Part shown: in pieces, positions 57,134 to 61,971 of the stretch
How the letters are laid out: every line of letters begins with the position of its first letter
Numbering within the stretch: position 1 is the first letter of the stretch
Notes under the pieces: model-generated
What the model saw: the letters and a program-made list of their open reading frames with translations, nothing else
Told to the model about the DNA's origin: nothing
The model's database searches: none
Program-made: the position numbers and the translations under genes
NCBI RefSeq assembly: GCF_002162135.1
Contig: NZ_CP021382.1
Span: forward strand, 4,214,001-4,278,000
DNA from: Cellvibrio sp. PSBB006
Lineage (GTDB): Bacteria; Pseudomonadota; Gammaproteobacteria; Pseudomonadales; Cellvibrionaceae
Direction of reading: 5' to 3'
DNA length: 64,000 bases

Positions 57134-57177
57134 AATAACAACAGGCGTAGGTGCTGCCACCTACGCCTGTTGTTATT
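57134..57177 (-). terminator. 20-bp perfect hairpin overlapping the slipin stop codon
   Basis: Positions 57134-57153 pair exactly with 57158-57177 around the loop ctgc. The stem includes the TAA stop (57173-57175, read as tta). It closes the rtcB-tRNA-slipin transcript. Confidence 0.7.
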
Positions 57178-58336
57178 GCCGTGCAGTTTTATCGGTTAAT
57201 CTCACCATGTCATTCATCACACCATCCAGTCCTCCATAAACGTTCAGTGTGTTGATGCGCGCAGTGATCTTCTCCAGAACCTCCAGTTCTTTTAAGCGCA
57301 ACAGAATCGGATTTCCTTCCATGACCTTGGCGGTGTTATGCAAGGAGCGTGTTGCCTGGGTTTCTTCCTGGCGTTTGATCAGGTTTGCCTCAGCCAGTTT
57401 CTGTGCTTCGACGACCTGGGTCAGTATCGATTTCATTTCGCCAGGTAAGACAATGTCTCTTGCGCCTACCGCCTTCAGGAGCAAACCGTAAGTAGATACC
57501 TTGGTCGACACCAATTCCAGCAGCTGTTGGTTCAGCGAGTTTTTATCGACTAGCAGCTCATCCAATGTTTGCGTGCCGACGATAGCGCGTAACGCCAGTT
57601 GCAGTTCTCGATAAAGATAGTCCTTCGCATCAGCGAGTGCCGTTTTGGCAATTTCCGGCTCAACGATTTGCCACATGACTGACAGATTGATCCGCAAGCT
57701 AACACGATCCTTGGTTAAAATTTCCTGGCCATTCACTTCCATGTTTTGTAAGCGCAAATCCAGCTGCTTCACCTCGATGACACGATTGAATTTCCACCAC
57801 ATATGTAGGCCCGCTTCGACCTTGCCGACGGTTTTGCCGTTAACTTCGAGAAAGCCAATATGGCCTTCAGCAACATTGACCACGGCAATAGATGTCAGAG
57901 CAGAACGGCTTAGTAACGTGTCCCGTGCCGATGACAATACCCGCATCAATTTCTCGCTAATAGCAAAATTATCGCTGATATCGAGTTTCACAAGTTCAAT
58001 ATCGTGCTGGGTTTTCCAATAGGCACCGCGCTGGCCCGGAGCTTTAACTTCCCGTAATACGCCTTGTTGATAGACCAACCCCACTTCATGCTCACCGGTT
58101 TCCCAGCGTTGTACATGGGCAGCAAAGGCATCCGGATGTAGCTCCGCCATCAGCAGTACATCTTTATGGATGCCATCCTGCAGAGTGCTTTGAATGTTGT
58201 GGTTTTGCACCTGATATTGATTGCGCCAATCCCAAAGTTTATACACACCTGGCATCAGCACCTTTTCAAATTGCTGGTCTTTGAAGAGCAAACCTTTTTG
58301 TGCTTCGGTAATAATGATTTTCTTTAGATATTTCAT
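57173..58336 (-). CDS. slipin family (SPFH/band 7) protein of the RNA-repair locus
   Basis: A 387-residue SPFH-domain protein. It has no obvious N-terminal membrane helix, unlike stomatin. An N-terminal segment (GLLFKDQQFEKVLMPGVY near residue 16) looks like a partial repeat of the later band-7 start (GHIGFLEVNGKTVGKVEAG near 158). The SPFH core spans about 155-330, followed by a coiled-coil-forming tail (VEAQKLAEANLIKRQEETQ). Slipins oligomerise on membranes and scaffold other proteins. It lies downstream of rtcB and the tRNA-like genes on the same strand, suggesting a role in anchoring RNA repair; this is inference. An aagga ribosome site precedes the start. Confidence 0.85.
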   Translation of the reverse strand: MKYLKKIIITEAQKGLLFKDQQFEKVLMPGVYKLWDWRNQYQVQNHNIQSTLQDGIHKDVLLMAELHPDAFAAHVQRWETGEHEVGLVYQQGVLREVKAPGQRGAYWKTQHDIELVKLDISDNFAISEKLMRVLSSARDTLLSRSALTSIAVVNVAEGHIGFLEVNGKTVGKVEAGLHMWWKFNRVIEVKQLDLRLQNMEVNGQEILTKDRVSLRINLSVMWQIVEPEIAKTALADAKDYLYRELQLALRAIVGTQTLDELLVDKNSLNQQLLELVSTKVSTYGLLLKAVGARDIVLPGEMKSILTQVVEAQKLAEANLIKRQEETQATRSLHNTAKVMEGNPILLRLKELEVLEKITARINTLNVYGGLDGVMNDMVRLTDKTARQ

Positions 58337-58337
58337 G

Positions 58338-58606
58338 TCGAGTCCTTGTTGTTAAAGAGGCAGAATCTCCGCAACCTTTCGGCTTTAATTGTTATGACAC
58401 CTGGGCATGGCGCGTCGAAAATCGCACGACGCACCTGCGCAGCTGCCAGCCCCCAACTAAAGGCGATGCAGTTGCTTGCACGCGATGAGTCACTCCTTTT
58501 TTGATCCCTCACTGAGTGTTCTTCCCTGAAAAATCCTTCTGCTTTCATCATTTGCATGGAGATCTGCCGATGCCCTTGCGGGCGGTTACGTATTGCTACC
58601 AGGAAA
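58338..58606 (-). other. 270-base spacer between the tRNA-like genes and slipin
   Basis: It has no convincing gene; a 74-codon frame ending at 58333 lacks family features. Just after the encoded CCA of the first tRNA-like gene is a gccc-gcaa-gggc hairpin (58572-58583, minus strand) with a GNRA loop. The slipin ribosome site ends the region. It may hold a structured RNA or processing sites. Confidence 0.4.
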
Positions 58607-58682
58607 TGGTAGTGCTAGCCGGAGTCGAACCGGCGACCGTCCCATCCACAGTGAGATGCTCTACCCTCTGAGCTATAGCAAT
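58607..58682 (-). tRNA. tRNA-like gene with GTG (His-type) anticodon, non-canonical
   Basis: A 76-base cloverleaf including encoded ACCA. The D stem is GCTC/GAGC, the anticodon arm TCTCA/TGGGA with loop CTGTGGA (anticodon GTG), the variable loop five bases and the T arm GCCGG-TTCGACT-CCGGC. Departures from a working tRNA-His: the acceptor stem ATTGCTA/TAGCACT has a mismatch at 2-71, it begins with A, the discriminator is A rather than C, and the base before A1 is C rather than G. HisRS needs the G-1:C73 pair, so charging with His is unlikely. It abuts the next tRNA-like gene and is downstream of rtcB. Confidence 0.7.
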
Positions 58683-58683
58683 G

Positions 58684-58754
58684 TACTGTCGACTGGATTC
58701 GAACCAGCGGCACACTGTAAAAACAGTTGCTCTACCAAGCTGAGCTACGACAGT
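58684..58754 (-). tRNA. tRNA-like gene lacking a normal anticodon loop
   Basis: The acceptor stem ACTGTCG/CGACAGT is perfect. The D arm is GCTC-AGCTTGGTA-GAGC and the T arm GCTGG-TTCGAAT-CCAGT is good. Between the D and T arms there are only 20 bases rather than the canonical 23; they fold as ACTGT-TTTT-ACAGT (or ACTG with a six-base loop), so the seven-base anticodon loop is missing. No CCA is encoded (A, C, then the next gene). It cannot decode a codon in the normal way. It lies one base from the first tRNA-like gene, as in a dimeric precursor. Confidence 0.7.
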
Positions 58755-58946
58755 TATTTGGTTCTGTTTGACCGCGATACACACGTCGACCAATGGCGGG
58801 TGTGTCAGGCAGATGATATGAGTCTGCTCCGCTGCGTCCAAACAGTGGTGTGATGAGGTTAGTCATCACGCCGCACCAAATTCTTTTAAACGGAAATTAG
58901 TGGTGAATAAATTCCGTTATAAATACATTTCATAACAGGCTGCGCG
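58755..58946 (-). other. 192-base region between rtcB and the tRNA-like genes
   Basis: No gene. A hairpin, gtgatga/tcatcac, with a six-base loop lies near 58850-58870; on the plus strand it extends to ten pairs. I see no terminator with a T-run, so rtcB transcripts could read into the tRNA-like genes. A Y-RNA-like element is possible but not demonstrable. Confidence 0.35.
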
Positions 58947-60173
58947 TTAGCCTTTCACGCACAGTACCTGCTTTAATGTGTGCACAATCTCAACCAGATC
59001 GGATTGTGCATCCATGACTTTTTCAATCGGCTTGTAAGCTGACGGTGTTTCATCGATCACATCTTCATCTTTACGACATTCCACTCCCGCTGTCGCTGAT
59101 AAATGTTCGTCCATCGATACGCGACGCTTTGCTTCGGTACGTGACATCACGCGTCCTGCTCCGTGGCTACAGCTGCAAAAACTGTCTTCGTTGCCCAGTC
59201 CTCGCACGATAAAAGAACGTGCGCCCATGCTCCCCGGAATAATGCCTATCTCGCCTTTGCGCGCGCTTACAGCGCCTTTGCGGGTAACCCATACATCTTT
59301 GCCATAATGGTGTTCACGGCTGATGTAGTTGTGGTGGCAGTTCACTGCTTCCACGTGCGATTCAAACGGAATATCAATAACTTCGCGCATGGCTTGTAGC
59401 GTACGTGCCATCATCACTTCGCGATTGATGCGCGCAAAATCCTGAGCCCATGCAACGGCGCTGACATAATGATGAAAGTGATCGCTACCTTCCGGCAAAT
59501 AGGCCAAATCCTTATCTGGCAATTGAATGAACCAACGCTCCATATCTTTTTTTGCCTGTTCAATAAAATGGGTACCAATCCGGTTGCCCACGCCACGTGA
59601 TCCGCTATGCAGCATCACCCACACGGCATCCGCTTCGTCGAGGCAAATTTCAATAAAGTGGTTGCCCGTTCCTAGCGTTCCCAAATGATGAATGTTGTTG
59701 GTGTTCTTCAAAAACGGATGCTTCTCGCATAGCTGGTTGAATCCTTCGTGCAGCGGTTGCCAGGCGTTGGCCACGTCGTCGGGGACATTTGCCCAGCTGC
59801 CAGGGTCACGCGTGCTGCGCAATTGTTTGGCGCGACCGTGGGGTACACGCTTTTCAATCAGGCTGCGCAACGCAGCGAGCGAATCGGGCAATTGGGTGGC
59901 CGTCAGGGTGGTCTTGGCGGCCATCATCCCGCAGCCCAGGTCTACCCCCACGGCGGCAGGAATCACCGCGCCAATAGTCGGAATGACGCTACCGATTGTT
60001 GCCCCTTTGCCCACATGCACATCGGGCATCACGGCAATCCATTTATGGATGAACGGCATCTGGGCCATGTTGCTCAGTTGCGCTTTGGCGTTTTCATCGA
60101 AGGGCACGCTGCGGGTCCAGGATTTAATCGGTGCCTGGCCTGGAGTATGTAAAACGTCGTAAGAGGTATCCAT
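58947..60173 (-). CDS. rtcB: RNA-splicing ligase RtcB
   Basis: A 408-residue Mn/GTP-dependent RNA ligase that joins 2',3'-cyclic phosphate or 3'-phosphate ends to 5'-OH ends, the same length as E. coli RtcB. Key residues are present: Cys in VDLGCGMMA near 73, GSRGVGNRIG near 180, NCHHNY near 275 and the guanylylated His in CSHGAGRVMSR near 337. The ATG at 60173 (MDTSYDVLH) has an aggga ribosome site. A longer frame to 60236 would start inside the sigma-54 promoter and is rejected. The gene faces rtcR, and there is no rtcA next to it. tRNA-like genes and slipin follow. Confidence 0.97.
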   Translation of the reverse strand: MDTSYDVLHTPGQAPIKSWTRSVPFDENAKAQLSNMAQMPFIHKWIAVMPDVHVGKGATIGSVIPTIGAVIPAAVGVDLGCGMMAAKTTLTATQLPDSLAALRSLIEKRVPHGRAKQLRSTRDPGSWANVPDDVANAWQPLHEGFNQLCEKHPFLKNTNNIHHLGTLGTGNHFIEICLDEADAVWVMLHSGSRGVGNRIGTHFIEQAKKDMERWFIQLPDKDLAYLPEGSDHFHHYVSAVAWAQDFARINREVMMARTLQAMREVIDIPFESHVEAVNCHHNYISREHHYGKDVWVTRKGAVSARKGEIGIIPGSMGARSFIVRGLGNEDSFCSCSHGAGRVMSRTEAKRRVSMDEHLSATAGVECRKDEDVIDETPSAYKPIEKVMDAQSDLVEIVHTLKQVLCVKG

Positions 60174-60219: not shown

Positions 60220-60235
60220 AGCAAGGGAGTTGCCA
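60220..60235 (-). promoter_or_regulatory. sigma-54 promoter of rtcB
   Basis: On the minus strand tggcaactcccttgct matches the -24/-12 consensus, with perfect TGGCA and TTGCT and exact spacing. The start site should be near 60208, about 35 bases before rtcB. RtcR is the expected activator. Confidence 0.85.
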
Positions 60236-60372: not shown

Positions 60373-61971
60373 ATGAATAATGTGGTGGTGGGAATTCTGG
60401 GCTCGCGTCTGGACCATGGCGGGCTGGGAAGAGGTCGCTGGGATCGCTGGCGGCCCAGTATTGCGGTGCTTATGCACTCCGAGTTGCCAATCGATGAATA
60501 CATCCTTATCTACTTGACGGAAGACGAGGTTCTGGCAAATTTAACGATCCGTGATATGGCTGACATCTCGCCCAACACCAAGGTTACGTTGTATCCCTGG
60601 AGCTGCTCCGACCCGTGGGATTTTGAGCAAGTCTACAGCCAGTTACATGACTTCGCGCGTAGTCAGCATTTTGATGTGGAACAAAATAATTATTACGTTC
60701 ATATCACGACGGGTACTCATGTTGCGCAGATCTGTTTGTACTTATTAACCGAAGCGCACTACCTCCCCGGCAAGTTACTACAAGCATCGCCTGGTCGTGA
60801 GGCGGGCACCAAGGGCACCTACCATATTATCGATCTGGACTTGTCGCGCTACGATCAGATTGCCTCCCGTTTTGCCAAGGAAACCGAGGATGCCGTTACT
60901 TATTTAAAAAGCGGTATCCATACGCGCAGTCGTGCGTTTAATGAATTGATCTTGCAATTGGAGCGCATATCAATCAAATCTTCTGCACCTATTTTGTTGA
61001 TCGGTGCAACCGGTGTTGGCAAATCGCAATTGGCAAAACGTATCTACGAGTTGAAGCGTCAGCGTGGGCAATTGACAGGTAACCTGGTTGAAGTGAATTG
61101 TGCGACCTTGCGCGGTGATAACGCGATGTCAGCGTTATTCGGACACGTTAAAGGTGCTTTTACGGGAGCGCAATCCGCACGGACCGGTCTGCTGCGCGAG
61201 GCGCATCAAGGGTTGTTATTTCTGGATGAGATTGGTGAGCTTGGGTTGGATGAGCAGGCGATGTTGTTACGCGCGATCGAAGATAAAACATTTATGCCAT
61301 TCGGTGGGGACCAGCTTGTCAGTAGTAATTTCCAACTAATTGCCGGTACGCATCGCAATTTGTTTGAGTTGGTGCGACAAGGATTATTCCGTGAAGACTT
61401 GCTGGCCCGCATTAATTTATGGACTTACGAGCTGCCCTCCCTGCGGGAGCGGATCGAAGATCTTGAGCCCAACATCGAACATGAGCTGCAAAACTTTACC
61501 CGCAAGGCAGGATACATGGTGAATTTTAATAAGGGCGCAAGAACCATGTACCTGACATTTGCCTATTCGGTGGATGCGCTATGGCGAGCTAATTTTCGTG
61601 ATCTCAACTCTAGCATCACGCGCATGGCTACTCTGGCTGTAGGTGGGAGGATCACCGAGGATGTTGTATCAGCTGAAATCCAGCGCCTGCGTCAGGCATG
61701 GAAGGGCTTTGGTGGGTTTGATGAAGAAAAGAGTGAACACTTGGAATTGCTTTTGTCATCAGCAGCGCTGGAAGAATTGGATATGTTTGATCGCTTACAT
61801 TTATCAGAAGTTATTCGTATCTGTCAGCAAAGCCGTTCTATGGCGGATGCTGGTCGTAAGTTATTTAATGTGAGTCGCAATAAGAAGACCAGTATTAATG
61901 ACTCTCACCGGCTGAAACAATATCTACAGAAGTTTGATCTGACTTTTCAGCAAGTTACTCAATCTGATTGA
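60373..61971 (+). CDS. rtcR: sigma-54-dependent transcriptional activator RtcR
   Basis: A 532-residue activator, the same length as E. coli RtcR. The N-terminal CARF-type sensor domain (about 1-170) begins VVVGILGSRLDHGG and binds an RNA-end or cyclic-phosphate-related signal. The AAA+ domain has Walker A GATGVGKSQ near 212-220, the sigma-54 contact loop GAFTGA near 260 and Walker B LLFLDEIGEL near 279. A C-terminal DNA-binding helix-turn-helix completes it. In E. coli-type systems damaged tRNA activates it. It is divergent from rtcB and would drive the -24/-12 promoter there. It overlaps the next (convergent) gene by 13 bases. Confidence 0.96.
   Translation: MNNVVVGILGSRLDHGGLGRGRWDRWRPSIAVLMHSELPIDEYILIYLTEDEVLANLTIRDMADISPNTKVTLYPWSCSDPWDFEQVYSQLHDFARSQHFDVEQNNYYVHITTGTHVAQICLYLLTEAHYLPGKLLQASPGREAGTKGTYHIIDLDLSRYDQIASRFAKETEDAVTYLKSGIHTRSRAFNELILQLERISIKSSAPILLIGATGVGKSQLAKRIYELKRQRGQLTGNLVEVNCATLRGDNAMSALFGHVKGAFTGAQSARTGLLREAHQGLLFLDEIGELGLDEQAMLLRAIEDKTFMPFGGDQLVSSNFQLIAGTHRNLFELVRQGLFREDLLARINLWTYELPSLRERIEDLEPNIEHELQNFTRKAGYMVNFNKGARTMYLTFAYSVDALWRANFRDLNSSITRMATLAVGGRITEDVVSAEIQRLRQAWKGFGGFDEEKSEHLELLLSSAALEELDMFDRLHLSEVIRICQQSRSMADAGRKLFNVSRNKKTSINDSHRLKQYLQKFDLTFQQVTQSD

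Follow-up and report, generated by a model that had tools for sequence, protein, structure and literature searches.

The window, that is, the whole 64,000-nucleotide stretch of Cellvibrio sp. PSBB006 DNA analysed here, carries an RNA-repair locus in which, on the minus strand, the RNA ligase gene rtcB (58947..60173, 408 aa from an ATG at 60173; PF01139, 439 bits) is followed by a gap and then by a gene encoding an SPFH/Band-7 ('slipin') protein of the rtc type (57173..58336, 387 aa; PF01145), and rtcR, coding for a CARF sigma-54 activator, is divergent (60373..61971, plus strand; PF06956 and PF00158). A minus-strand sigma-54 (-24/-12) promoter motif, TGGCAACTCCCTTGCT (60220..60235), lies 5' of rtcB with a score of 13.5 out of 15.1 that none of 200 shuffles equalled; it reads TGGCAA, and the strict pattern TGGCAYN{5,6}TTGC matched no promoter in the window. 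Divergent rtcR and the sigma-54 promoter are the features of RtcR regulon membership present in the window, and they agree with the operon setting proposed in the initial annotation, which had also noticed no Ro60 gene; a search of the same genome for a Ro60 (TROVE) partner indeed gave no match. The gap between rtcB and the SPFH gene is filled by an RNA of ~525 nt (about 58,359-58,883, minus strand) that comprises, from 5' to 3', a three-way-junction domain, two tRNA-like modules, then two hairpins, and finally a 3' domain that the long-range helix P7 closes. No terminator was found between this RNA and the SPFH gene, so that any free RNA would have to arise by processing, and a role in cis is possible.

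ARAGORN reports the two modules as minus-strand tRNA genes at 58607-58682 (anticodon GTG) and 58683-58754 (no anticodon). The Rfam tRNA model (RF00005, gathering score 29) also matches both, at 58684..58754 (tRNA-like 1, 57.1 bits) and 58610..58682 (tRNA-like 2, 58.0 bits), with the single base 58683 between them, just as the initial description of two abutting cloverleaf genes one base apart had it. They rank 32 and 34 among the 42 Rfam tRNA matches of the genome (150 of 190 candidates scored). The GTG gene had been called the first of the pair; in the transcript it is the loop-less module that comes first. This tRNA-like 1 has a 7-bp acceptor, normal D and T arms and, as already described, only 20 nt from D arm to T arm and no encoded CCA; a 5-bp stem (ACTGT/ACAGT) with a 4-nt TTTT loop (58719-58722) stands where a functional tRNA has a 7-nt anticodon loop. 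A functional tRNA-His carries G-1 with C73, an intact acceptor, and a CCA end. The second module, with a 7-nt loop containing GUG, has C-1, the discriminator A73 and a U2-C71 mismatch, all of them correctly read before, and its apparent CCA is part of a hairpin, H5 (CTACCATTTCCTGGTAG, 58596..58612, minus strand), which relatives keep without CCA. The other tRNAs of the genome served as a control: ARAGORN found 40 genes in the 26 stretches with other Rfam tRNA matches and all 40 encode CCA, the tRNAs readable by our parser have both 7-nt loops and CCA (25 of 25), and a normal tRNA-His with G-1 and C73 is present at about 535.4 kb. Set against this control, the module defects bear out the earlier view of the pair as tRNA mimics rather than tRNAs.

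To place the pair among relatives, we scanned a species-genome collection for RtcB and used the best 80 of 314 loci. ARAGORN reported no tRNA-like pair in most of them, and abutting pairs near rtcB, with varying or unreadable anticodons, in records of Cellvibrio, Methylobacter, Gallionella, Methylococcaceae and others; the relatives' sequences share a conserved block 5' of the pair and conserved blocks 3' of it. Among 50 unique upstream regions, reduced to 49 by setting aside L112 as another copy of the L105 locus, a first module was parsed in 44 and none in five (L037, L102, L104, L106, L154). Read with a fixed 5-bp stem, a rule on which some of the 4-9-nt values depend, the loop of the first module measured 4 nt in 5 regions, 5 nt in 5, 6 nt in 7, 7 nt in 23, and 9 nt in 4, and thus differed from 7 nt in 21 of 44 (for L007 and L026 the count took the second module as the first). 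Later modules (n = 19) have loops of 7 nt in 16 cases, 4 nt in two, and 5 nt in one, and loci with a single module mostly have a 7-nt loop. N-CCA is encoded by 6/44 first modules and 1/19 later ones, the latter being the hairpin case of the window. The comparison with relatives suggested in the initial annotation therefore had a divided outcome: the cloverleaves do occur in relatives, but loop loss is not a fixed trait, the first module having a 7-nt loop at four other Cellvibrio-type loci (L003, L005, L006, L125). The conserved trait of the first module is an unconstrained anticodon-loop length and not strict loop loss; the module body is retained, the decoding end is not. Since loop length varies across the family, with loops of 4, 5, 6, and 9 nt at the same place in other members, the missing anticodon loop is not an assembly slip, and an assembly or deletion artefact is ruled out. 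Ordinary tRNAs are ruled out by the own-genome control together with the loop and CCA counts across the family. Very probably the two odd tRNA genes, taken at first as stand-alone genes, do not work as tRNAs and are instead modules of a single large RNA that is folded and conserved. By eye, the lone module of L029 (from 5375) and L102 (from 1607) combines a 5' acceptor strand similar to that of the relatives' module 1 with a 3' strand similar to that of their module 2 and looks as if a pair had fused, and a lone T-arm-like hairpin of the GGGGTTCGAATCCCC type, resembling half a further tRNA module, lies 3' of the module in L030, L032, L038, L040, L044, and L083-L085.

The 5' part of the RNA, domain 1 (58755..58883, minus strand), is a three-way junction formed by P1, P2, P1a, P3, and P4, P2 being an extra hairpin present in Cellvibrio-type copies. 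It is based on two alignments (A1 and A2), their pair counts, and a model of the 5' domain alone, R1, built on A1. A1 holds 18 copies of the 5' block aligned with MAFFT without use of structure and fits the junction, 89.2% of cells being paired; sliding the partner strand brings this down to 31-40%. Of its 45 pairs, 30 changed on both sides. Because the junction was drawn from these same sequences, we made a second MAFFT alignment, A2, of 20 sequences, 19 of which are outside R1; it omits the weaker copies L035, L037, L043, L097, L106, L150, and L159-L161 as well as the genus loci, and two isolated pairs were dropped from the structure before counting. The 19 new sequences were found through the A1-built model (L024 and L038 in rtcB loci, the others in genome scans), so that their choice leans the same way, although the MAFFT alignment does not. 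In A2, 82.6% of cells were paired against 30-44% after sliding, and 26 of 34 pairs were doubly changed; against the fold, one of five measures, 'further pair types', was reached by 12 of 500 shuffles, and two of the inner P4 pairs fail to form in 18/20 and 15/20 sequences.

Beyond the modules, H5 has a same-place counterpart in 11 aligned 3' regions, also recognized by eye, and a further minus-strand hairpin, H6 (GCCCGCAAGGGC, 58572..58583), has one in several of the 11, though not all. The long-range helix P7 (5' arm 58558..58568, 3' arm 58359..58370, the latter 22 nt 5' of the SPFH start codon) appears in the fold of the window sequence alone, in the consensus fold, and in pair counts, and the inner long-range helix P8 (5' arm 58454..58462, its core in the window; 3' arm 58383..58391) is supported by a helix search, the consensus fold, and counts, all arms being on the minus strand. 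In the 11 regions, 11 of 18 pairs of P7 and P8 were doubly changed, with the structure taken from the same alignment. A search for the best long-range helix gave a mean of 8.9 against 7.1 in shuffles; P7 was not always the helix chosen, and the choice in the window was P8. Folded alone, the window sequence has a z of -4.56 and P1 and P7 appear unaided; its minimum-energy fold does not draw both cloverleaves. At cut-off, Rfam 15 recognizes no family other than tRNA in the element, and Rfam searches of the window element and the relatives' loci rule out a class known to that release.

Applied to the window and the 80 rtcB loci, R1 gave 24 matches, namely the 18 model members plus L024, L038, L039, L035, L043, and L037; L038 and L039 have equal scores, and L037 reaches just 20.4 bits (E 0.032). 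L042 and L045, both with tRNA-like modules 5' of an SPFH gene, escaped the model. In whole genomes, R1 matched 17/390 of the order (two false), 6/369 of the class and 5/21 of the genus (own genome included in both), and 5/398 of a draw from the phylum (two false, three already seen). The element is therefore patchy, yet spread over several families. The order and class scans yielded 24 loci, of which 20, own included, lie directly 5' of an SPFH gene (15, L083-L097, and five, L102-L106) and four are false. These false positives (L098-L101, in G251 and G307) are GTGGGAGGGGGCTTGCCCCC palindromic repeats with R1 scores of 29-32 bits. Weak true members score 24-29 bits, so that such a score decides nothing without an SPFH gene and modules.

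The initial annotation had looked to rtcB as the partner of the pair. The constant neighbour is instead the downstream SPFH gene: the RNA precedes it on the same strand wherever both occur, whereas the place of rtcB varies, being upstream in some loci, downstream in L152-L154, and on the opposite strand in L043. In the 80 rtcB loci, taking as RNA an R1 match or, for L042 and L045, modules 5' of the SPFH gene, and as SPFH a match above 150 bits, both occur together in 23, SPFH without RNA in none, RNA without SPFH in two, and neither in 55, the absences being soft because loci end at 4-kb flanks or contig ends. Conversely, 22 of 381 genomes of the order encode a close SPFH ortholog (E 1.7e-79 or better, the next match being at 1.1e-20); R1 reaches at least 35 bits in 14 of them and 24-29 bits in four, with no match in four, and ARAGORN finds one or more tRNA-like genes 5' of the SPFH gene in all 22, at a distance of 838-1026 nt in three (L159-L161). 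Within the genus, the RNA, RtcR, and a full SPFH ortholog coincide in the same five genomes out of 21. In a sixth genome, G769 (79% complete), RtcR is present, the RNA is absent, and rtcB is followed by only the last ~56 SPFH codons. In both L004 (from 1864) and the G769 locus L138 (1501-1711), rtcB almost abuts the 3' part of the SPFH gene, the RNA and most of SPFH having gone together. The two loci that kept the RNA with no SPFH gene nearby, L024 and L029, look partly decayed; in L024 (6705-6930), domain 1 and decayed modules remain and no SPFH gene is found within 1.5 kb downstream. In L112 (4607-6160), three tandem tRNA-like modules are followed by two SPFH copies in tandem, one partial and one full. 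Hydropathy revealed no transmembrane segment in the window SPFH protein, nor in 40 of 43 orthologs. An AlphaFold2 model predicts three beta modules, an SPFH fold, and a long helix, and this predicted fold matches oligomeric stomatin, HflK/C, and vault cages. Comparing the two parts of the protein with each other revealed no significant repeat. The SPFH alignment, A3, takes in 40 of 43 sequences, L031, L146, and L153 being omitted.

The sigma-54 motif was found in 31 of 32 regions (p<=0.02 by shuffling), 26 of the regions lying 5' of rtcB and six 5' of the RNA, a count that describes these 32 regions alone; the sole failure was L020 (p 0.29). Where the RNA heads the transcript, the motif lies just 5' of domain 1 or its counterpart in 6/6 cases (L042, L043, L045, L152, L153, L154; L096 is not counted). 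In Salmonella, RtcR binds 5' tRNA fragments with a cyclic phosphate and its regulon is induced by broken tRNAs (PMC7790460); by analogy, broken tRNA may also induce the RNA described here. Computation shows a covarying fold in which tRNA bodies are kept and anticodons and CCA are not, linked to an SPFH gene and to sigma-54 promoters, and we regard it as highly probable that the tRNA-like modules belong to a single structured RNA, conserved and associated with that gene and with the RtcR regulon. Three related loci add tRNA gene arrays, in which most genes have CCA and some are broken, and an HNH-type gene 5' of the RNA (L109 2477-8593; L108 7347-8404; L107 5665-6833), the latter recognized by Pfam (HNH endonuclease, PF14279) in L108 and L109 and by eye in L107; this endonuclease is weakly similar to the HNH of IscB and Cas9d. 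The order in L109 is rtcB, rtcA, tRNA array, HNH, RNA, SPFH, and a CCA-adding-type enzyme.

Burroughs and Aravind, in 2016, reportedly described SPFH/Band-7 modules paired with 'a novel tRNA-like molecule' in RNA-repair systems, so that the association as such is not new. Those systems are said to bring together the SPFH gene, RtcB, and the tRNA-like RNA, with a scaffold and its cognate RNA proposed, and the window fits that description, its SPFH gene adjoining a tRNA-like RNA in an RtcB operon. The junction domain, the tandem and triple modules, the free loop length, P7 and P8, the sigma-54 promoters, and the operons with HNH genes and tRNA arrays are worked out here. A literature search, for which subscription papers were mostly out of reach, found no description of this RNA, whose size, architecture, and loop behaviour appear new. 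The Y RNA YrlA (rsr-yrlBA-rtcBA, RF02553) is likewise a tRNA-like RNA in an RtcR-regulated rtc operon, but differs in size and arm order, and at 58651-58716 of the window, between the T arm of module 1 and the D arm of module 2 inclusive, its model yields 19.5 bits, far short of the gathering score (69). This weak match is a hint that tandem tRNA-likes could have given rise to permuted Y-RNA modules. Among 32 genomes that have the element or the SPFH gene belonging to it, TROVE was matched in just three, and there partially. The GOLLD and ROOL RNAs are also large and ornate and found near tRNA islands, and GOLLD linkers sometimes contain tRNAs (PMC12286853); their setting is phage, in contrast with the SPFH-linked RNA of rtc operons, and their Rfam models left the window element unmatched up to an E of 10 and reached the gathering score in none of the loci of eight relatives (plus three false-positive loci). 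The Anabaena TrcR regulon comprises the same kinds of genes (trn array, HNH, rtcB, slipin), with a 26-tRNA operon induced together with the others under translation stress, but the regulator is the repressor TrcR instead of RtcR, and the tags place the 26 tRNA genes and the other genes at separate loci (PMC10272220). Finally, the Bacillus cereus pseudo-tRNA tRNAOther is tRNA-like and does not function in translation, yet it is a single gene flanking a genomic island (PMC3399842).

As for the role of the RNA, the reading that we favour, though tentatively and at somewhat less than an even chance, is a tRNA-mimic scaffold working with the SPFH protein. The pair would be the tRNA-like core of a structured ~525-nt RNA that is encoded alongside rtcB and the SPFH gene and belongs with them to the RtcR regulon. 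The SPFH protein, a member of a ring-forming family, may assemble into a ring or cage. Factors that bind tRNA (RtcB, tRNA nucleases, end-processing enzymes) would be held by the modules through elbow and acceptor, and contact with the SPFH protein would fall to domain 1 or the 3' domain, in the way that Ro60 is tethered to an RNase by Y RNA. Covariation in both halves, the fold of the window sequence with P1 and P7, the SPFH linkage counts, the sigma-54 motifs, the L109 operon, the likeness of the SPFH fold to oligomeric cages, and the prevailing lack of a membrane segment argue for such a scaffold, which is weakened by the RNA without SPFH in L024 and L029, the missing terminator, the unpaired inner P4, and the cloverleaves undrawn in the minimum-energy fold. 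We consider it unlikely that the whole makes up a vault-like ribonucleoprotein, i.e. a soluble SPFH cage with MVP-like beta modules on or around the 525-nt RNA, in which the tandem mimics would capture broken tRNAs, tRNA nucleases, and RtcB, and tRNA repair would proceed inside a damage-induced particle. The hallmarks of the vault protein MVP are MVP repeats, a shoulder, and a cap helix, beside which stand the three beta modules, SPFH fold, and long helix of the AlphaFold2 model. MVP matches the SPFH model over the whole chain only at an rmsd of about 10, and other SPFH proteins match it as well as or better than the eukaryotic vault; in 40 SPFH members, Pfam detects MVP_shoulder weakly in three (best E 0.0093) and no MVP-repeat family at E up to 1, and Rfam does not match the element as vault RNA.

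It is conceivable, if rather doubtful, that the RNA is instead a cis-acting leader of the SPFH mRNA, with the modules as an operator for a tRNA-binding protein that broken or scarce tRNA would shift, altering SPFH translation; synthetase operons are controlled by tRNA mimicry in a similar manner. The constant position of the RNA 5' of the SPFH gene on the same strand, the end of P7 only 22 nt from its start codon, and the lack of a terminator between them speak for such a leader, but the size of the RNA and its one to three tRNA modules are unusual for one, a Shine-Dalgarno-like stretch separate from P7 is visible by eye in the aligned regions, the module is 838-1026 nt distant in L159-L161, and the RNA survives without SPFH in 2/25 RNA loci. 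Anticodon nucleases read the anticodon loop, and damage-induced mimics could bind and inhibit them as decoys, the loop-less module being uncuttable; loops of 4 to 9 nt on a retained stem are in line with this idea, which we nevertheless find improbable because loop sequence and length are unconstrained and because domain 1, P7, and the SPFH link are left unexplained. At the level of sequence, the decoy role looks no different from those of RtcR ligand and ligase substrate, which the initial annotation had also suggested. As processing signals, the modules would be sites at which RNase P and RNase Z cut the rtcB message apart from that of SPFH: their acceptor and T arms are well formed and they lie between two genes of one operon, but we deem this very unlikely, as domain 1, P7, and P8 would not be needed and modules also occur in units starting at their own promoter. 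Spare or replacement tRNAs during damage, finally, are already disfavoured to the point of being scarcely credible: the arrays of mostly ordinary CCA-encoding tRNA genes in three related loci and the Anabaena operon of 26 tRNAs induced with rtcB and slipin (PMC10272220) would suit them, against which stand the rarity of N-CCA in the modules, the many modules without a 7-nt loop or end pairs, and the normal tRNA-His that the genome already has.

RtcB-RtcR operons are widespread, and a large conserved RNA with a genetic link to the SPFH gene provides a concrete molecule. It also cautions that what is annotated as a tRNA gene in an rtc locus may be part of another RNA. In Pseudomonas aeruginosa, the 'tRNA gene' PA4581.1 is among the genes that increased most in a late isolate (PMC8743555), and PA4582 is assigned to the rtc operon (PMC8619066). 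The locus tag places PA4581.1 beside PA4582 of this rtc locus, and it may be the same RNA element. Two further arrangements were noticed around rtcB: a second RtcB gene (about 55% identical) on the other strand, beyond rtcR, in L039 (102-1274), and a tRNA-Pro(TGG)-like gene directly 5' of rtcB in L031 (3901-3978), L032 (3892-3969), and L034 (161-237).
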